From positions 1-64,000 of the forward strand of contig CAMJFY010000002.1 of NCBI GenBank assembly GCA_946405105.1: a DNA stretch of 64,000 bases, given 5' to 3'. A program made the position numbers and the translations under genes. The notes under the pieces are model-generated. The model worked only from the letters and a program-made list of their open reading frames with translations. It made no database searches and was not told the DNA's origin. The stretch is from an uncultured Caryophanales bacterium. Its GTDB lineage: Bacteria; Bacillota_I; Bacilli_A; Acholeplasmatales; Anaeroplasmataceae. Of the stretch, positions 956-44,454 are shown piece after piece. Each line of letters opens with the position of its first letter. Within the stretch, counting starts at the first letter, position 1.

Positions 956-2083
956 ATGAATGAAATAACAAGAGAAAAAGAAATAATAAAGACAAGTATA
1001 ATTGGTATTATCGGAAATATTTTATTAGTAGGATTTAAAGCCTTCATTGGTTTTCTTGCTGGATCAGTATCAATTATTATGGATGCATTAAACAATTTAA
1101 CTGATGCTTTATCAAGTGTAATAACAATTATAGGTACTAAGCTATCAGGTAAAAAGCCAAATAAGAAGCATCCATATGGCTATGGAAGAATTGAATATAT
1201 CACATCAACCTTAATCGCATCATTAATTTTATTTGCTGGTGGTATGGCAATTTATGAATCAATTAAATCAATAATTGATTATTTTCAAAATGGTACAATG
1301 CCACAATTTGAAATTTATTCAATAATTATTATTGCCGCAGCTATTATTGTTAAGGTTGCGATAGGTTTATATTTTAGATACAAGGCAAAGAAGATAGATA
1401 GTGATGCCCTAAAGGCTTCAGGTACTGATGCCTTATTTGATTCAATATTATCTTCATCTACATTAGTAGGTATTATTATTGCTAAATATGCAGGATGGTA
1501 TGTTGAAGGATATTTAGGTATCATAATTGGTTTATTTATCCTAAAGAGTGGCTATGAGGTATTAAAGGAATCATTATCATCAATGATAGGTGATAGATTT
1601 GATAAGGATTTCGTTTTAGAAATTAAAAAGGAAATCAATCAAATAGATGGTGTTTGTGGTGCATATGATTTAATATTAAATAGCTATGGACATCATAAAA
1701 ATATTGGTTCTGTTCATATTGGAGTAAAAGATAATTTAACTGCCAAAGAGATTCAAGCAATTGAAAGACAAATTACTTCATTAATGTATGAGAAATATAA
1801 TACAATTATGACAGTAGGAGTATATGCTGAAAACCTAGATGATGAAGAATCTAAATCAATTTATTCTAAAATAATAGATATTATTAAAGATTATCCTAAT
1901 GTATTACAAATTCATGGCTTCTATTTTGATAAAGAAAAGAAGCTTATTAATTATGATTTAGTTATTTCGTTTGATGAACAAAATCCAGATAATTTAATAC
2001 AAGAAGTAACTAATAAAACAAAGGCATTATCTAGTGATTATAAGGTAATAGTAAATTATGATCAGGATTTCAGCCTATCATAA
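956..2083 (+). CDS. Cation diffusion facilitator, manganese-type (MntE-like) efflux transporter
   Basis: A 375-residue cation diffusion facilitator with six predicted membrane helices in the first 210 residues and a cytoplasmic ferredoxin-like C-terminal domain. The family exchanges cytoplasmic divalent metal for protons and acts as a dimer in the plasma membrane. The transport site can be read: TM2 has N46 and D50 (MDALNNLTD), and TM5 has D158 and D162 (GTDALFD). Zinc members usually have a histidine in place of N46 or D158; the ND-DD set is, as I recall it, that of the manganese exporter MntE, so manganese is the likely substrate. The ATG directly follows the T-run of the carB terminator and has only a weak GGTG ribosome-binding site. 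The GH28 fusion gene follows after 18 bases. Confidence 0.88.
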   Translation: MNEITREKEIIKTSIIGIIGNILLVGFKAFIGFLAGSVSIIMDALNNLTDALSSVITIIGTKLSGKKPNKKHPYGYGRIEYITSTLIASLILFAGGMAIYESIKSIIDYFQNGTMPQFEIYSIIIIAAAIIVKVAIGLYFRYKAKKIDSDALKASGTDALFDSILSSSTLVGIIIAKYAGWYVEGYLGIIIGLFILKSGYEVLKESLSSMIGDRFDKDFVLEIKKEINQIDGVCGAYDLILNSYGHHKNIGSVHIGVKDNLTAKEIQAIERQITSLMYEKYNTIMTVGVYAENLDDEESKSIYSKIIDIIKDYPNVLQIHGFYFDKEKKLINYDLVISFDEQNPDNLIQEVTNKTKALSSDYKVIVNYDQDFSLS

Positions 2084-2101
2084 GCTGTTATGAGGTATAA
2101 T

Positions 2102-4543
2102 ATGGAGAAGTTTTTAGATGGAACAATAATTAGTGATTTCTTTAATAAGGATGAAGCTATTTCTATTGATTATTTTAAAAATAAATATTATCTAAAGGAT
2201 TATTGTAAGCCAAATGTATTAGAAACTAATAATATCCAGGATTTAATTGATAATATATCAGATAATGGTGGTGGATTATTAATTGTTGATGATACATATA
2301 TTACTGGTGCCTTATATTTTAAAGAAAATGTAAGCTTATATATTAAAAAGAATTGTAAGCTTCTTGGCAGCAATAATATTAATGATTATCCATTATGCTA
2401 TACAAGAATAGAGGGAGAAAGTGGACTTTATTATCCTGCCCTTTTAAATTTTATTGGTATTTCTAATGCCTATATATTTGGTGAAGGAACAATTGATGGT
2501 AATGGTAATCAATCATGGAAAAGCTTTTGGGATAGAAGAAAATGGAATAATAATGCCACTAATAAGGATGAACAAAGACCAAGATTATTATTCATATCAA
2601 ATTCATCAAATGTATTAATCAAAGATTTAACAATGATTAATTCGCCTTTTTGGAATATTCATTTATATAAATCAGAATATATTAAGCTAATGAATCTAAA
2701 AATTCATTCACCAGAAGCACCAATAAAGGCTCCATCAACAGATGGAATAGATGTAGATTATTGTAGATATGTATCAATTAAGAATAATTATTTCGATGTT
2801 AATGATGATGCGATAAGCCTAAAGGGCGGCAAAGGACCATATGCAGATTTAGATATTCATAATGGTATTAACGAATATATTGTTATTTCTAATAATGAAT
2901 TTGCGTTTTGTCATTCATGCCTAACACTAGGTAGTGAATCAATTCATAACAAGGATATTATTTTTAAGGATTCATTAACTACAAAATCTAATAATGTATT
3001 ATGGTGTAAGGTTAGACCTGATACACCACAAATATATGAAAATATATTAATAGATAATATTAAAGGCTATTCAAGAGCTTTAATATATATCAGACCATGG
3101 GAACAATTCTTTGATTTAAAGGGAAGAAATGATTTAGGAAAAAATATTATAAAGAATGTAGTTATTTCTAATGTTGATTTAAATTGTGATAATTTTTTTA
3201 AGATAACAAAATCTGACCAATATATTTTAAAGGATTTCGAATTTAATAATTTAAATATTAAATGTTTAATTTCAGGATATAGTGATGATAAGGTAGATAA
3301 TATTAAATTAAATAATGTAAATGTAGAAGAAAAATATATTGGATTAGAAGAAAAATTAGAATTCGTTAGAAATAAAATAAAGAATGAAAATATTAAATGC
3401 ATTGCTAATATTTCAAAGCCATTATTTATGATATCTAATTCATACCCTGGTGTTTGGCTAGAGCATGTATATGATTCAATAATGTATGGTAATTTATTTG
3501 ATGACTTTAGTATTGCTAAAAATACAATTAATGCTTTCCTTGATTTAGCATTAGATAACGGACAAATACCATGCTTTATCAAAAATGATGGTTCAATTGG
3601 TTATTCTCAAATCCAGGAATGTGTATCATTTGCACGACTTGGATTTATGGTTTATGAAAAAACAAATGATTTTGATTTATTAAAAAAGCTATATGATAAA
3701 TCAATTAAATGGGTTGATTTTTTATATAAATATCGTATGACTATGAATATGGGTTTAGTTGAAATGTTTGTTGGTTATGATACAGGTCATGATAATAGCC
3801 AAAGACTAGATGGTATGAAATATAAAGGATATTATTCAATTGATGGTAAAAGGGTTGATGCATCAATTAAACCAGATGATAATCCAATTATTGCGGTTGA
3901 TATGAATTGTAATTTATATATGACATTAAATACAATTAAAGAAATGGCTATAATACTAAATGATTCTAAAAATATCAATAAATATGATAAATTAGCAAGA
4001 AATTTAAAGAAAAGATTATTTGAGGTATGTTATGACGATGATGATTGTTTCTTTTATGATGTAGATAAAAATGGAAAAAGAAAACATAAATCATCAACAA
4101 TATTCCATTTATTTCTAGAAAGAGTATTAGATAGAGATAAGGATAAAGATATTATTGATAAGATATACCAAAAGCATATTAAAAACCCCGATGAATTTTG
4201 GACTAATTATCCATTCCCAGCAATGGCCGTAAATGATAAGGAATGGTTAAATAATAAGATGCCTAATTCATGGGGCTATTATAGTCAAGCATTAATTGCT
4301 TTAAGATGCTCTTTATGGATGGATTATTATGGATATATCAAGGATTATGATTCAATATTATATAAATGGCTTGATATGTTTATTAAAAATTATGATAATA
4401 ATCCATTCGGACAAGAAATTGATCCTATTACTGGAGAAGCAAGTACTGCATCTCCTTGGTATTCAACATCTATGATATTATTCTTATATATTATTAGAAG
4501 ATTAAAGCTATTACAATCTCACGATATTATTCCTACATTTTAG
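2102..4543 (+). CDS. GH28 pectinase-like domain fused to an MGH1/GH63-like (alpha/alpha)6 glycosidase
   Basis: A large two-domain protein without signal peptide, so cytoplasmic. Roughly residues 40-415 form a GH28 right-handed beta-helix: APSTDGIDVD (near 213), the acid pair in VNDDAISLKGGKGP (near 235), and FCHSCLTLGSES (near 270), where the usual GHG is CHS. Roughly residues 440-813 form a helical barrel resembling GH63/mannosylglycerate-hydrolase enzymes, with GHDNSQRLDG (near 564) matching their catalytic Asp region and TGEASTASPW near the end matching their Glu region. GH28 enzymes cleave galacturonic acid links; the second substrate is unknown. The ATG at 2102 is chosen because an AGG lies six bases upstream; an in-frame ATG at 2090 has no such site. 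Its tail overlaps the convergent ZIP gene by four bases. Confidence 0.8.
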   Translation: MEKFLDGTIISDFFNKDEAISIDYFKNKYYLKDYCKPNVLETNNIQDLIDNISDNGGGLLIVDDTYITGALYFKENVSLYIKKNCKLLGSNNINDYPLCYTRIEGESGLYYPALLNFIGISNAYIFGEGTIDGNGNQSWKSFWDRRKWNNNATNKDEQRPRLLFISNSSNVLIKDLTMINSPFWNIHLYKSEYIKLMNLKIHSPEAPIKAPSTDGIDVDYCRYVSIKNNYFDVNDDAISLKGGKGPYADLDIHNGINEYIVISNNEFAFCHSCLTLGSESIHNKDIIFKDSLTTKSNNVLWCKVRPDTPQIYENILIDNIKGYSRALIYIRPWEQFFDLKGRNDLGKNIIKNVVISNVDLNCDNFFKITKSDQYILKDFEFNNLNIKCLISGYSDDKVDNIKLNNVNVEEKYIGLEEKLEFVRNKIKNENIKCIANISKPLFMISNSYPGVWLEHVYDSIMYGNLFDDFSIAKNTINAFLDLALDNGQIPCFIKNDGSIGYSQIQECVSFARLGFMVYEKTNDFDLLKKLYDKSIKWVDFLYKYRMTMNMGLVEMFVGYDTGHDNSQRLDGMKYKGYYSIDGKRVDASIKPDDNPIIAVDMNCNLYMTLNTIKEMAIILNDSKNINKYDKLARNLKKRLFEVCYDDDDCFFYDVDKNGKRKHKSSTIFHLFLERVLDRDKDKDIIDKIYQKHIKNPDEFWTNYPFPAMAVNDKEWLNNKMPNSWGYYSQALIALRCSLWMDYYGYIKDYDSILYKWLDMFIKNYDNNPFGQEIDPITGEASTASPWYSTSMILFLYIIRRLKLLQSHDIIPTF

Positions 4544-38960: not shown

Positions 38961-38967
38961 TAAATAA

Positions 38968-38998
38968 AACTCACTAGAAACAACTAGTGAGTTTTTTA
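38968..38998 (+). terminator. Terminator after pheT
   Basis: AACTCACTAG (38968-38977) pairs with CTAGTGAGTT (38984-38993), followed by a T-run. Confidence 0.92.
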
Positions 38999-39079
38999 TT
39001 TCATCAAAATTGATATAAGTCTAGTTAATGATCCGTTGTTCAATTTTCAACAATATTAGTTTGTAATTACTAGTATAAT

Positions 39080-39106
39080 AAGCCCGTTTTTATACGGGCT
39101 TTTTTC
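39080..39106 (+). terminator. Second, orphan terminator-like hairpin between pheT and the AAA+ gene
   Basis: AAGCCCGT (39080-39087) pairs with ACGGGCTT (39094-39101), followed by six T residues. No gene lies between it and the pheT terminator. It may be a back-up terminator or end a short transcript. Confidence 0.65.
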
Positions 39107-39192
39107 ATACAATAGAAAATAATGATAAGTATGATATAATATAATTAACATAATCTATTTTATAAACCATATTAATGAGGGAAGTGGTTATA

Positions 39193-40977
39193 GTGAAGAA
39201 AGCGACAAAATTTATCATAATGCTTGTGTTTGTTTTTTTAGCATTTGCTTTATCAAGCTGTGAATCAACAAGTAAAGAAGCAACCGCAGCTGTTAATCCA
39301 AATATAAATGTAAGCTGCTATTATAATTCAAGCAAGGATACAACATCAGTTGAAGTATCTGTTATTGTTAAAAATAACTCTATTTATAATATTGATAAAT
39401 GCTCATTCAAGTTTAACATCTTTAATAATGATGAGCTTGTTAGAACTACTGATTATTCCGATTTCAATTTAAAAGTAAAGCATGGTCGTGAGAAAAAGGC
39501 TACATTATCCTTCGAAGCGGCAGGTGAGGTTACAAATGTAGATATTCAGTCATGGTCAGCCCATTATGTATCATTTTGGTCAACATATAATGTTATTATA
39601 ATTATTACAATTATTGTGGCTGTTGCTATATCAATAATAGCGTTATTTATAATAATATTTAGTGGAATGGACACTTTAGTAGAATTAATTATGGATAATG
39701 TATCTTGGGGGTTAACCCTTTTAGTTCCATTTGTTATATATGTAGTCTATGGAGGAATAGATCGTTTTTGGAGCTGGGTAATATTTGTAATAATCGCTAT
39801 AGGAATTGTTGCAGCTATTGTATTATTAGGGCTTTTAATATTAATTGGATATATTATTTTTGCAATTATTGATTATGTTGGTACATTTTCATGTGGTAGC
39901 AATTATTATATAAATACAAATTATGTCAAAAATAATGCTTCTAACGATGATGAATATGTATCTATAGAAGAATGTCTAGATGATCAAGATATGCTAATGC
40001 AATTTTCGGTAGCAGATTTAAGAGAATATTGCAAAAAAAATAATTATAACGGATATGGTCAATTAAATAAAAAAGAATTAGTAACTTTGATTATGAACAA
40101 AGGAAAATACAAGAAAACTGAAGTGATTGACCAGAATACAAATTCTAAATCAACCAAAGCTAAGAAAATAACATTTGATGATATCGCTGGATTAAACGAA
40201 GCAAAAGAAGCATTTAGAGAGAAGGTAATATTGCCATTTGAGCATCCTGAATTATTTGAAAAATTCGGTAAAAGGGCTGGAGGAGGCATTTTGTTATACG
40301 GACTTCCAGGAACAGGAAAAACAATGTTTGCTGAGGCAGCATCAAATGAATTAGATGCATTATTTATTTCTGTAAAATGCTCTGATATTAAATCAAAATG
40401 GTATGGAGAATCTGAGGCAAATATTAAGAAAATATTTGATACTGCAAGATCCTATAGTAAAGCTATTATTTTCTTTGATGAATTTGAAGCTATTGGTTCG
40501 AAAAGAACTGATAATTCTGAAAATGCAAATAACGATTTAGTTCCTGAAATATTAGCTGAAATGCAGGGAGTAGGAACTAATAATAGCAATTCAACAATAA
40601 TGGTTATTGCTGCGACAAACAAACCATGGGCAATCGATTCTGCATTCTTAAGACCAGGAAGATTTGATGAAAAAATCTACATACCTTTACCTGATGCTGA
40701 GGCAAGAAAAAAAATGTTTGAATTGGAGCTATCTAAATTACCAACAGAAGATTTAGATTATGATTATTTAGTTAAAATAACAGAAGGATTTAATGGCGCT
40801 GATATAAAAGAAGTGTGTGAAAAGCTAAAAATGAGTGCTATTAAAGATTCTATTACTAAAGGTTCTAATCAAACAATTGGTATGGATGATGTTGGAAGAA
40901 TAGAATCATCTATAAAGAGCAGTGTATCTCAAGAGGATATAGATGCATTAAATGAATTTAAAAAATCAAATAAATAA
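39193..40977 (+). CDS. Lipoprotein-signal membrane protein with cytoplasmic Cdc48/Vps4-like AAA+ ATPase
   Basis: About 594 residues with an unusual layout. A signal peptide with lipobox ALSSC (Cys about 23) leads to an outer domain of about 105 residues, then three predicted helices (about 133-157, 170-187 and 193-228), so the rest lies in the cytoplasm. A SAP/Rho-N-like helical motif (VADLREYCKKNNYNGYGQL, about 273-291) precedes the AAA+ domain: Walker A GLPGTGKT, pore loop KWYGESEANI, Walker B IIFFDEFEAIG, sensor 1 AATNKP and LRPGRFDEK with the arginine finger. FtsH has a similar ATPase but a protease domain follows; here there is none. The start is taken as GTG 39193 because it yields a standard signal peptide; ATG 39175 is the alternative. 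The M13 peptidase gene follows after 27 bases. Confidence 0.85.
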   Translation: MKKATKFIIMLVFVFLAFALSSCESTSKEATAAVNPNINVSCYYNSSKDTTSVEVSVIVKNNSIYNIDKCSFKFNIFNNDELVRTTDYSDFNLKVKHGREKKATLSFEAAGEVTNVDIQSWSAHYVSFWSTYNVIIIITIIVAVAISIIALFIIIFSGMDTLVELIMDNVSWGLTLLVPFVIYVVYGGIDRFWSWVIFVIIAIGIVAAIVLLGLLILIGYIIFAIIDYVGTFSCGSNYYINTNYVKNNASNDDEYVSIEECLDDQDMLMQFSVADLREYCKKNNYNGYGQLNKKELVTLIMNKGKYKKTEVIDQNTNSKSTKAKKITFDDIAGLNEAKEAFREKVILPFEHPELFEKFGKRAGGGILLYGLPGTGKTMFAEAASNELDALFISVKCSDIKSKWYGESEANIKKIFDTARSYSKAIIFFDEFEAIGSKRTDNSENANNDLVPEILAEMQGVGTNNSNSTIMVIAATNKPWAIDSAFLRPGRFDEKIYIPLPDAEARKKMFELELSKLPTEDLDYDYLVKITEGFNGADIKEVCEKLKMSAIKDSITKGSNQTIGMDDVGRIESSIKSSVSQEDIDALNEFKKSNK

Positions 40978-41004: not shown

Positions 41005-43020
41005 ATGAAAACAAAAAGATATTTATTTCTATTATTTATCTTTACGTTAATATTCATATCATCTTGTTCTAGCAAGAAAGTTATTTCAGAAGAGAAGGAA
41101 TATGATACATATACATATACATTTAAACAAGATGCTGATATGTCTAAAATTAATGGTTACCCATGGATTGATTTTTCTCGTCCAGGAGCAATAAAAATGG
41201 TATACAGACCAAGTTTAAAAGATGATTTTTATGGCTATGTTAATTATGATGAGCTAAATAGTCTAGAAATTAATAAAGAGGTTGTAAAGGGTGGCATTTA
41301 TGAAGCTGAAAATATTGTTTCTGATAATATAGAATATTTATTAAAAAATAATTCTAATTCAGATTATGCTAAGGCTTTATCTAGAATATATAACATATAT
41401 TCAACTACTAATAAGGATTTAGAAAAAGCTTATATAAAAGCTAAGATTGATGAAATTATGTCTATTAATACAAAAGATGGTATCTATGATTATATATTTA
41501 GTCAAAGCGGTATGGAAAATCCATCAGCTCCATTTCATATGAGAGAGATAGATGGAAAACTAGAATTATATTCTAATACGTCAAATTATGATTTTACTCA
41601 ACTTTTAGCTTTGAAGTCTTTAAATAATGGGGATGGAGAAATACCAATAAATATTTCTAAAAATTGTTTAATGAAATATGGATTTTCAAGAAATGAAGCT
41701 AATAATATTAGTCAAGCAGGAATTAATGCAGACTATGAGTATCTAGTAGATTATTTAATTCAATCAGATGAAGAAGGTACACTAAAAAATAGCTTTTATT
41801 ATGATGAAGGCTATTCTGCATTATATAATTATTTATCTTCATTAGGCTATTCTGATGATACTATGGTTAGATATTCATCTGGAGTTTCTAGTTTTATTAG
41901 ATTTGCTTGTTATGAAGATAATATAGAAATTATAAAGAGTGTATTAGCATATAGATTAGGTTACACATATAAAATATGTTTATCTATTAATGATTTCCGT
42001 GAAATTATGTTTCCTATATTTTCTGAAATATCAAAGGTATATGATGCGAAAACATTAATTAATATAATATTTGCAGATAGCTTTACAAATTTAGTGGATA
42101 GAGCATATATTGATGAATTTTTAACTGATGAAGATCAAGGAGATAATTTAAAAGAAATAGTAAATAAAATAGTAGAAGAATATAAATTAGTAATTGATTC
42201 ACAAAAATGGTTATCAGATCAATCTAATTTAAATTTAAAATTAAAATTAGAAAATTTAAATCAAGAAATTTTATATCCAGATTATTTAAAAACATTACCA
42301 TCATTTGATGATAATTCAAGCGATTTAGTTGCTAAATATTTAGGTAGCTATACAACGTGGATGTCTAGTGTAAATAAGGATATAAAGCCTAATACATGGA
42401 TAACATCAATTACGTTTGCTAACGCAGCTTATATGCCTACTTCTAATAGTATTGTTATTTATGCAGGATTATTATCTAATCCTAAAATTTATAATGAAAA
42501 TATGACTACAGAAGAAATGCTTGCTGGAGTCGGATTTATTCTTGCGCATGAAATATCTCACGCTTTTGATGCTAGTGGTATTTATTATGATTATGAGGGT
42601 CATTATAGTGATCTTTTAGATACTGATGAATCCACTTCTAAATTTCTTATAAAAGAAGCACAACTTGTAGCGTCATTATCTAGATTAAAATATAAAGAAA
42701 ATAAGAAAGTTAATGGCATTACAGTTTGCAATGAGGCAATGGCTGATATTGGTGGAATGAGAATAATGCTAGAGATTGCTAAAAAAACTCCTGGCTTCGA
42801 TTATAAAGCATTCTTTGAAGGATATGCTAAAACATTTGCCTGCATGTATAATGAAGTATATTATGAGAGTGATTATTTATATAATGATTCTCACTTATTG
42901 CCAATGTTTAGAGTAAATAATGTATTAAATGAATTCCAAGAATTTTATGATACATTTGATATTAAATCAGGTGATAATATGTATAAAGCAATAAGTAATA
43001 GAGCAACTATTTGGGATTAA
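41005..43020 (+). CDS. M13-family (neprilysin/PepO-like) zinc metallopeptidase lipoprotein
   Basis: A 671-residue surface peptidase. The signal peptide ends at lipobox ISSC (Cys about 21). Zinc ligands are H515 and H519 in AHEISHAFDASG, and E577 in NEAMADIGG, with the ExxxD spacing of the family; NAAYMPTSNSIVIYAGLL matches the M13 substrate-binding NAYY region. Family members cut short peptides outside the cell. GGGAGA precedes the ATG. It probably shares a transcript with the AAA+ gene. The N-terminal 400 residues are weakly conserved, as usual in M13. Confidence 0.9.
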   Translation: MKTKRYLFLLFIFTLIFISSCSSKKVISEEKEYDTYTYTFKQDADMSKINGYPWIDFSRPGAIKMVYRPSLKDDFYGYVNYDELNSLEINKEVVKGGIYEAENIVSDNIEYLLKNNSNSDYAKALSRIYNIYSTTNKDLEKAYIKAKIDEIMSINTKDGIYDYIFSQSGMENPSAPFHMREIDGKLELYSNTSNYDFTQLLALKSLNNGDGEIPINISKNCLMKYGFSRNEANNISQAGINADYEYLVDYLIQSDEEGTLKNSFYYDEGYSALYNYLSSLGYSDDTMVRYSSGVSSFIRFACYEDNIEIIKSVLAYRLGYTYKICLSINDFREIMFPIFSEISKVYDAKTLINIIFADSFTNLVDRAYIDEFLTDEDQGDNLKEIVNKIVEEYKLVIDSQKWLSDQSNLNLKLKLENLNQEILYPDYLKTLPSFDDNSSDLVAKYLGSYTTWMSSVNKDIKPNTWITSITFANAAYMPTSNSIVIYAGLLSNPKIYNENMTTEEMLAGVGFILAHEISHAFDASGIYYDYEGHYSDLLDTDESTSKFLIKEAQLVASLSRLKYKENKKVNGITVCNEAMADIGGMRIMLEIAKKTPGFDYKAFFEGYAKTFACMYNEVYYESDYLYNDSHLLPMFRVNNVLNEFQEFYDTFDIKSGDNMYKAISNRATIWD

Positions 43021-43059: not shown

Positions 43060-43560
43060 TTATGCTTCTTTATATTCAACCTTTGTTACTTTACCAATAA
43101 TATTATTAGAATTAACAAATGTAACCTTACCACTAGTTTCTAAATCATATATATAGCTACTACCATATGTTGTTCTATATGGATATTGCTGTGCAATTCT
43201 ATCATCTTCAACAACATAAGTTGAAGAATCACTTAATATATCTACTATTCTAGAAGTATTAGTAATTTTTTTGCCAACGCTATCACTATATATTTGATAT
43301 GTTATAACATCTCCAATTTTTAATTCATCGTAAGTTGTTGATACAACTAGTTTATCTCCATTACTAAATCCTTTAATTTCATAATTATCCCATTCTACTA
43401 ATTTTGGATATTCATCACTCCATTCCATAGAATCTGACATTACTTTAAATGTTTTAGTAGATGATTCATTATTAGTGTTATTTGTTTTATTACATGCTGT
43501 TAGGGATATTGAAAATATTCCTGCAAGCATTAATATAAATGCTTTTAGATATTTTTTCAT
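43060..43560 (-). CDS. Lipoprotein with degenerate signal-peptidase (S26/SipW-like) fold
   Basis: A 166-residue lipoprotein (lipobox LTAC, Cys about 23). The mature part follows the pattern of SipW-type signal peptidases: VMSDSMEW has the catalytic Ser context (usual S-G-S-M-E-P), then ELKIGDVITYQIY, then ITNTSRIVDI where the active enzymes have THRIV, and NNIIGKVTKV at the end. The catalytic His is Ser here, so activity in the usual way is doubtful. It might be a peptidase-fold binding protein, or use another base. The function is unknown. It ends at a shared terminator and lies next to the ORF6N-RhuM gene, 49 bases downstream of it on the same strand. Confidence 0.65.
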   Translation of the reverse strand: MKKYLKAFILMLAGIFSISLTACNKTNNTNNESSTKTFKVMSDSMEWSDEYPKLVEWDNYEIKGFSNGDKLVVSTTYDELKIGDVITYQIYSDSVGKKITNTSRIVDILSDSSTYVVEDDRIAQQYPYRTTYGSSYIYDLETSGKVTFVNSNNIIGKVTKVEYKEA

Positions 43561-43608: not shown

Positions 43609-44454
43609 TCAACAAAAACATAGATGTTCTTTTAGTTCATTTACATCATTAGTTAACTTTAATATTATGTCACTATGTTCTAAACATCTTTTGGTATTAA
43701 TAGAATATCCTTTTATTAAATAATTCTTTAATACATTATTAGCCCATCTTCTAAATTCTATTCCTCGCTTTGAATTAACTCTATATCCAACTGATAAAAT
43801 AACATCTAAATTATAATAAGTTGTTTTATATCTTTTTCCATCTTGGGCAGTTGTCAAGTTTTCCTTGACTACTGAATCAGATTTTAATTCTTTTTCATTA
43901 AAAATATTTATTATATGTAAGCTTATATTTTGTTTAGTAACTTCAAATAATTCTGCAATTTCTTGTTGAGTTAACCAAATAGTTTGTTCATCAGGAGAAA
44001 CTCTAACATCAAGTAAAACATTACCACTTTCAAATTTAACAATATCGTAATTTTTGGCTTCACTAGGCCATTTTTGAGCAATTTGGTTATCAATATTATT
44101 GATATATTCATTTAGAAATAATACATTTTGTTTTGATATATCATCTTTTGGTTTAAGGATTGTCACTAATGTCTTTATTCCATCTATTGTGAATGCGTAT
44201 GGTAAACTTGTACGCCCTCCTTTGATACCTTTCATTTGCATTAACGCGGTCACATTTTGTGACCTCGCTACTATTTCTAATTCATCTTTGTTAATTATAA
44301 ACATTAAATCTTCTGGAAACTTTTCTAGATTTCTTTTAACTTGCTGGTTAAAAGTTTTAGTACTATATCCATAAATTTTAGCTAATTCAAAATCTAGCAT
44401 TACCTTCCTTCCTCTAATTTTATAAATCATTGATTCAATTTTTTCCTTTTCCAT
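43609..44454 (-). CDS. ORF6N-RhuM domain protein
   Basis: A 281-residue DNA-binding-type protein. Residues about 5-90 form an ORF6N domain (YKIRGRKVMLDFELAKIYG, FNQQVKRNLEKFPEDLMF), found in phage antirepressor-like proteins. Residues about 140-260 match RhuM (EQTIWLTQQEIAELFEVTKQ, YYNLDVILSVGYRVNSKRG, FRRWANNVLKNYLIKGY). RhuM proteins usually go on for about 100 residues more; here the protein ends after NELKEHLCFC. Such genes are common in mobile and defence regions, but their role is not settled. AGGAGG precedes the ATG. Confidence 0.82.
   Translation of the reverse strand: MEKEKIESMIYKIRGRKVMLDFELAKIYGYSTKTFNQQVKRNLEKFPEDLMFIINKDELEIVARSQNVTALMQMKGIKGGRTSLPYAFTIDGIKTLVTILKPKDDISKQNVLFLNEYINNIDNQIAQKWPSEAKNYDIVKFESGNVLLDVRVSPDEQTIWLTQQEIAELFEVTKQNISLHIINIFNEKELKSDSVVKENLTTAQDGKRYKTTYYNLDVILSVGYRVNSKRGIEFRRWANNVLKNYLIKGYSINTKRCLEHSDIILKLTNDVNELKEHLCFC

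Follow-up and report, generated by a model that had tools for sequence, protein, structure and literature searches.

A lipoprotein-signal membrane protein with a Cdc48/Vps4-type AAA+ domain and no protease, a candidate membrane-tethered unfoldase of Bacillota

The window, a 64,000-nucleotide stretch of DNA from an uncultured Caryophanales bacterium, encodes a 594-residue protein in which a lipoprotein signal peptide, an outer domain, three transmembrane helices, and a SAP/Rho_N-like helix pair precede a single AAA+ ATPase domain. The protein is probably a hexameric, membrane-tethered AAA+ unfoldase or translocase, and we see about an even chance that its task is to extract membrane proteins or to take apart membrane-associated complexes. 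Its family is small and apparently undescribed: no description of an architecture combining the lipoprotein signal, ectodomain, three transmembrane helices, SAP-like pair, and AAA domain was found in the open-licence literature. The features of the gene and its upstream region, all on the forward strand, are as follows.

38966–39101, +: two terminator-like hairpins between the upstream pheT and the AAA gene
39193–40977, +: whole gene for the lipoprotein-signal, three-TM, SAP-like, AAA+ protein of 594 amino acids (16 proteins of the same architecture)
39193–39261, +: type II (lipoprotein) signal peptide with lipobox LSSC, Cys-23 at 39259–39261
39262–39570, +: outside-facing β-sandwich (Ig-like) ectodomain, eight strands in the AlphaFold2 model (mean pLDDT 87)
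39589–39663, +: transmembrane helix 1, from hydropathy (helix 128–157 in the model)
39703–39759, +: transmembrane helix 2, from hydropathy
39775–39852, +: transmembrane helix 3, from hydropathy (helix 195–231 in the model)
39985–40110, +: SAP/Rho_N-like helix pair, from profile matches, the model, and charge analysis
40171–40692, +: AAA+ ATPase domain (PF00004, 131 bits), fold closest to p97/Cdc48 D2 and Vps4
40300–40323, +: Walker A motif GLPGTGKT, invariant in the family alignment
40396–40407, +: pore loop 1, KWYG (double aromatic), in 18/18 family AAA domains
40465–40488, +: Walker B motif IIFFDEFE, invariant in the family alignment
40651–40662, +: arginine-finger motif RPGR, both arginines invariant
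40750–40965, +: AAA lid and Vps4_C-like C-terminal helices (AAA_lid_3, 36 bits; Vps4_C sub-threshold)

Open reading frame analysis gives an intact frame from GTG 39193 to the stop at 40977. The GTG is preceded, 11–16 bases on its 5′ side, by a Shine-Dalgarno-like GAGGGA, and the protein read from it opens with VKKATK, resembling the MKK starts of relatives. An alternative in-frame ATG at 39175, six codons upstream, has no Shine-Dalgarno-like site. The original prediction had allowed for a start beyond the signal peptide; the start precedes it, and the signal peptide is contained in the protein with either codon.

The lipobox LSSC occupies residues 20–23, and its cysteine is kept in all 15 family members whose N terminus was read. 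The window genome encodes Lgt and LspA, the enzymes of lipoprotein lipidation and processing, so that the protein shows the features of a bacterial lipoprotein, a cysteine after a hydrophobic stretch in a genome with both enzymes. The N-terminal cysteine would be lipidated, with the ectodomain facing outward. The ectodomain comprises ∼100 residues (about 24–126). A fold search against the PDB returned weak, generic sandwich matches only (best E 4e-3) and no confident match; therefore, we describe it as an Ig-like fold and assign it no binding role. A DUF2393 match to the ectodomain (E 9e-4, below cut-off) occurs in one family member only, and Pfam finds no known domain above cut-off in the first 260 residues of the window protein. 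The ectodomain is followed by three hydrophobic segments at residues about 133–157, 171–189, and 195–220, whereas the most distant family member, L128, has five hydrophobic helices. Both numbers are odd, which places the AAA domain in the cytosol. The lipoprotein signal, the outer domain, the three helices, and an AAA+ domain without protease had all been predicted, and the reading frame, hydropathy, Pfam, and the structural model confirm them.

The SAP/Rho_N-like pair (approximately residues 265–306) is only weakly matched in the window protein itself (E 0.28 and 0.52). In L128, however, SAP scores above the Pfam cut-off (27.3 versus 23.9 bits); L053 falls 0.2 bit short of the cut-off for Rho_N, and 11 of the 14 aligned members match Rho_N. 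As judged from these profiles, the predicted motif appears real at the level of the family, and in the window protein it is faint. The further proposal that the motif binds nucleic acid fares less well: over the family as a whole the region carries almost no net charge (mean +0.4, range −4 to +4), and the pair is missing from L063, one of the orthologues, so that such binding is unsupported. The same observations bear on a reading of the protein as a transmembrane sensor, whose ectodomain would read the envelope or a ligand while the AAA ring uses the SAP-like motif to remodel a partner in the cytosol or on nucleic acid. Conservation of the ectodomain and of the motif speaks for a sensor, but the near-neutral charge and the exception of L063 speak against it, as does the lack of any regulator or signalling gene as a conserved neighbour, and we regard this role as unlikely.

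Above the Pfam cut-offs, the window protein contains AAA (PF00004) and AAA_lid_3, and it ends 94 residues past the AAA core with nothing following the lid. No family member has a protease domain or an HExxH motif after the AAA domain; relatives with a protease, an outcome that the original prediction had held open, were not found. Vps4_C gives sub-threshold matches in 11/14 aligned members (best E 1e-5) and lies below cut-off in every member scored individually. Scores against the NCBIfam models for CDC48 (229 bits, curated cut-off 803), CdvC (220, cut-off 650), and FtsH (183, cut-off 600) are far below the cut-offs, and annotation therefore assigns the protein to none of these three families. 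The nearest solved structures by sequence, for the AAA core and the lid alike, are those of p97/Cdc48 D2 (D2 204.6 bits), and a Foldseek search additionally gives the Vps4 proteins of archaea and yeast (TM 0.83–0.85, normalised to target).

In ATAD1 (Msp1), a K-W-Y-G pore loop grips the substrate with both aromatic residues, and replacing either the tryptophan or the tyrosine with an alanine abolishes the extraction of a membrane protein (PMC9273213). The corresponding loop is KWFG, KYFG, or KWLG in soluble sister ATPases of the family, KWYG in the vWA-linked ATPase L043, KFYG in archaeal Cdc48 D1, and MFVG in 8/8 FtsH sequences. The KWYG loop thus fits membrane extraction but is no proof of it, because soluble sisters, L043, and Cdc48 D1 also carry double aromatics (KWFG, KYFG, KWYG, and KFYG).

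A scan of the species genome collection, together with searches for relatives, recovered the full architecture in 16 proteins (the window protein, L050–L061, L063, L128, and L132), two of them incomplete as read, L055 at the N terminus and L059 at the C terminus. Two further copies are broken (L062, AAA part only; L064, in two frames). The relatives conserve a single architecture, a Cdc48/Vps4-type AAA domain on a lipoprotein-signal membrane protein, and the intact ones keep the N-terminal part, the loss of which would have counted against the original prediction. According to their record titles, the genomes carrying the gene are MAGs of Bacillota from gut and rumen, to which L132 is added. 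The L132 member (1501–3309) is full-length and open only if TGA is read as tryptophan; its genome is a single contig of ∼665 kb (0.67 Mb).

The family is rare and patchy in distribution. Within the window's taxonomic family, 3 of 55 genomes have a full-length copy, and the N-terminal module is matched in 5/160 genomes of the order and 7/395 of the class. Members from the taxonomic family resemble the window protein no more closely (53% identity) than do L050 and L051 from outside it (54–55%), which suggests transfer or repeated loss. Plasmid searches gave only partial matches covering about half of the query, none more than 80% of it, and the plasmid matches listed are mostly annotated as CDC48-type ATPases. 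Patchiness would suit an anti-phage or conflict ATPase of the IetA/IetAS kind, and PADLOC IetA models do match the AAA domain with up to 132 bits. The match is limited to the generic AAA region, however, and the NCBIfam IetA model scores 118 bits against a cut-off of 510; no relative was found among viral contigs with the N-terminal module, and neither a protease partner nor defence genes are conserved nearby, the downstream metallopeptidase being no conserved neighbour. A role in defence is therefore very improbable.

This metallopeptidase gene (41005–43020, +) encodes an M13 (PepO-like) protein with its own lipoprotein signal. Farther downstream, on the reverse strand, lie a small lipoprotein (43060–43560) with weak matches to signal peptidase I and S24 peptidase (E 7e-4 and 0.06, below cut-off) and a phage-regulator-like ORF6N and RhuM-type fusion protein (43609–44454). 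Only 27 bases, free of any terminator, separate the end of the AAA gene from the start of the M13 gene. An operon with the M13 peptidase was considered as a family trait and rejected, since the two genes adjoin in the window only. All-against-all comparison of 15 family loci, plus four further loci, revealed no conserved neighbour gene. Standing alone behind two terminators and lacking a conserved neighbour, the AAA gene appears to work as one protein, and the function probably resides in this protein itself.

FtsH is encoded in 26/26 genomes tested, including all family genomes, and the family protein is therefore an addition to FtsH with a role other than that of FtsH. The constant presence of FtsH and the close M13 gene could also be read as signs of an assembly factor or a regulator whose partner is FtsH or the neighbouring M13 lipoprotein peptidase. 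Against this stand the confinement of the M13 arrangement to the window and the interface residues of the AAA domain, which are those of a self-sufficient homo-ring. We consider such an accessory role improbable.

By descent, the motor stands nearest to bacterial Vps4-like ATPases. When 75 AAA domains, Msp1 not among them, were placed in a tree with FtsH as the root, the 18 family AAA domains formed one clade with an ultrafast bootstrap of 100. Its sister group consists of soluble Bacillota Vps4-like ATPases with an MIT-like helical N-domain (bootstrap 84, or 73 when L043 is included), whereas the deeper branching order is weak (support 39–49). Pfam MIT is matched below threshold by L078 among the closest sisters (E 6e-4) and by L047 outside that group (E 7e-4); because only these two match, we call the N-domain of the other sisters MIT-like by resemblance. 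A small helical Snf7-like gene lies directly upstream of the sister ATPases L065, L066, L070, L078, and L103. When scored alone, the Snf7-like proteins of L065, L103, and L066 have no match to Pfam Snf7. Two more distantly related homologues aligned with them do match it: L047 2853–3461 (E 6e-6; 26.4 bits, cut-off 27.3) and L042 7440–8066 (E 1.4e-4).

Pairs of Snf7/ESCRT-III-like and Vps4-like AAA genes are found in Bacillota at L065 (2917–3558 and 3482–4723), L066 (1852–3661), L070 (2964–4730), L078 (9070–10834), L103 (9138–10594), L042 (7440–9306), L044 (5079–6918), L045 (8975–10809), L046 (1–1770), and L047 (2853–5277), those of L044 and L045 adjoining a phage-type integrase. Proteasome-like (Ntn hydrolase-like) proteins occur near Vps4-like ATPases in several bacteria, some as tandem paralogues; L065 2064–2735 matches Pfam Proteasome above cut-off (E 1.1e-7), and L103 8452–9114, L043 603–1855, L068 10851–13180, and L108 14184–16454 are proteasome-like by resemblance. 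An SPFH/Band 7 protein (L070 9088–10386; Band_7_1, 112 bits) is encoded near one Snf7-like/Vps4-like pair, and L078 15107–16351 looks similar; SPFH proteins are also reported from archaeal ESCRT loci and with PspA. At L043 (4567–10138), a Vps4-like AAA gene clusters with a kinase-like, two vWA-like, and a PP2C-like phosphatase gene, assigned by resemblance. According to a recent (2024) survey (PMC10936438), Vps4-like and Snf7-like systems are confined to archaea and eukaryotes. Because its closest relatives sit in bacterial clusters of Vps4-like and Snf7-like genes, the family offers a lead into bacterial ESCRT-type systems.

If the protein acted as Vps4 does, a membrane-bound ring would disassemble ESCRT-III-type Snf7/PspA-like polymers and so remodel the membrane. 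The nearest AAA relatives beside Snf7-like genes, the Vps4_C-like C terminus, and the structural similarity to Vps4 of archaea and yeast all favour this. However, no Snf7-like gene is matched (E ≤ 0.01) in the window genome, which is 91% complete, and such a gene is absent from 14/18 family genomes; in the remaining ones, including G041, where it has its own ATPase, it lies at another locus. PspA is found in 0/55 genomes of the window's taxonomic family, and Pfam finds no MIT domain in the window protein. The general scarcity of Snf7-like genes and the absence of PspA indicate that ESCRT-III disassembly is not the general function of the family, unless the filament protein goes unrecognised, and we hold it to be unlikely.

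A separate anchor protein hints at how the architecture may have arisen. In genome G013, which belongs to the window's genus, L042 6076–6705 encodes a 209-residue protein that has a signal peptide with the lipobox LTSC and a homologous ectodomain, and that stops shortly after the last of its three hydrophobic helices. Its first 150 residues, from the signal to the first TM, align to the N-terminal profile of the family by hhalign (probability 97.2, E 3.4e-11). On the same strand follow a 197-residue protein (6832), a Snf7-like protein (7440), and a Vps4-like AAA protein (8113), which puts the anchor three genes upstream of the ATPase. Three related Snf7/AAA clusters are without an anchor protein; with one case against these three, the link between anchor and Vps4 is suggestive only. 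In the family protein, the MIT-like N-domain of a Vps4-like ATPase would have given way to a membrane module, which in other genomes is encoded on its own. That an ESCRT-IV (Vps4-like) ATPase became a one-protein membrane extractase in Bacillota by exchange of MIT for the lipoprotein/three-TM module is possible, but we consider it rather doubtful. A survey of PSP systems describes the transfer of Vps4-like AAA proteins to bacteria, with displacement of snf7 by a TPR/6TM membrane protein (PMC11237479); by analogy, this would be a comparable step towards the membrane.

A membrane-based unfoldase that extracts or remodels proteins, as originally predicted, is still the best reading, and one that we infer. 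Six copies would assemble into a ring that lies on the cytosolic side of the membrane, and the KWYG pore loops would take hold of exposed stretches of proteins in the membrane or bound to it, which would then be pulled through the pore and out of the bilayer or complex. Once released, substrates would either be refolded or be broken down by FtsH or by proteases of the cytosol. Substrate selection, sensing, or recruitment would fall to the ectodomain, the transmembrane bundle, and the SAP-like pair.

FtsH is the one membrane-anchored AAA quality-control machine usually credited to bacteria, and it degrades what it extracts, whereas Msp1 in mitochondria extracts membrane proteins without destroying them. 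If the proposed function is true, the family represents a second, protease-free membrane unfoldase, kept even in a 0.67-Mb genome, and thus bacterial extraction or remodelling without destruction. If the ESCRT-IV origin is also true, the family would be the bacterial equivalent of Msp1, derived from an ESCRT-type machine, and its anchor would at first have acted together with an ESCRT-III system of bacteria.

Among known systems, bacterial Vps4-like ATPases and archaeal CdvC/Vps4 have the closest AAA sequences (44–52% identity), are neighbours in the tree, and have a tail that the family resembles through its sub-threshold Vps4_C matches. They are soluble, have an MIT-like domain, and often lie beside Snf7-like genes, whereas the window protein is membrane-integral and has no MIT domain. 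Cdc48/p97 D2 is the best sequence-scored structure and has the RPGRFD and FFDE motifs in common with the window protein, which differs in possessing a single AAA domain and a membrane anchor and in lacking the double-psi-barrel N domain. With FtsH, the window protein shares an outside domain, transmembrane helices, and a cytosolic AAA domain; in contrast to FtsH, it has no zinc protease, its AAA domain is only ∼33% identical, and its pore loop reads KWYG instead of MFVG. YjoB of Bacillus subtilis is a protease-less membrane AAA protein in Bacillota, which is not known to be a lipoprotein with such an ectodomain. Msp1/ATAD1 resembles the window protein in its N-terminal membrane anchor, cytosolic AAA domain, W and Y pore loop (KWYG), and lack of a protease. 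The window protein differs in being bacterial, in its lipoprotein signal, β-sandwich ectodomain, and SAP-like pair, and in its three-TM lipoprotein anchor, since Msp1 is anchored by a single transmembrane helix and has nothing equivalent. The arginine-finger and Walker B motifs of the window protein are Cdc48-like, which would set it apart from Msp1, and because the RPGRFD arginine-finger motif is Cdc48-like we do not claim membership in the Msp1 family. By analogy of anchor, motor, and pore loop, the window protein and Msp1/ATAD1 probably perform the same action.
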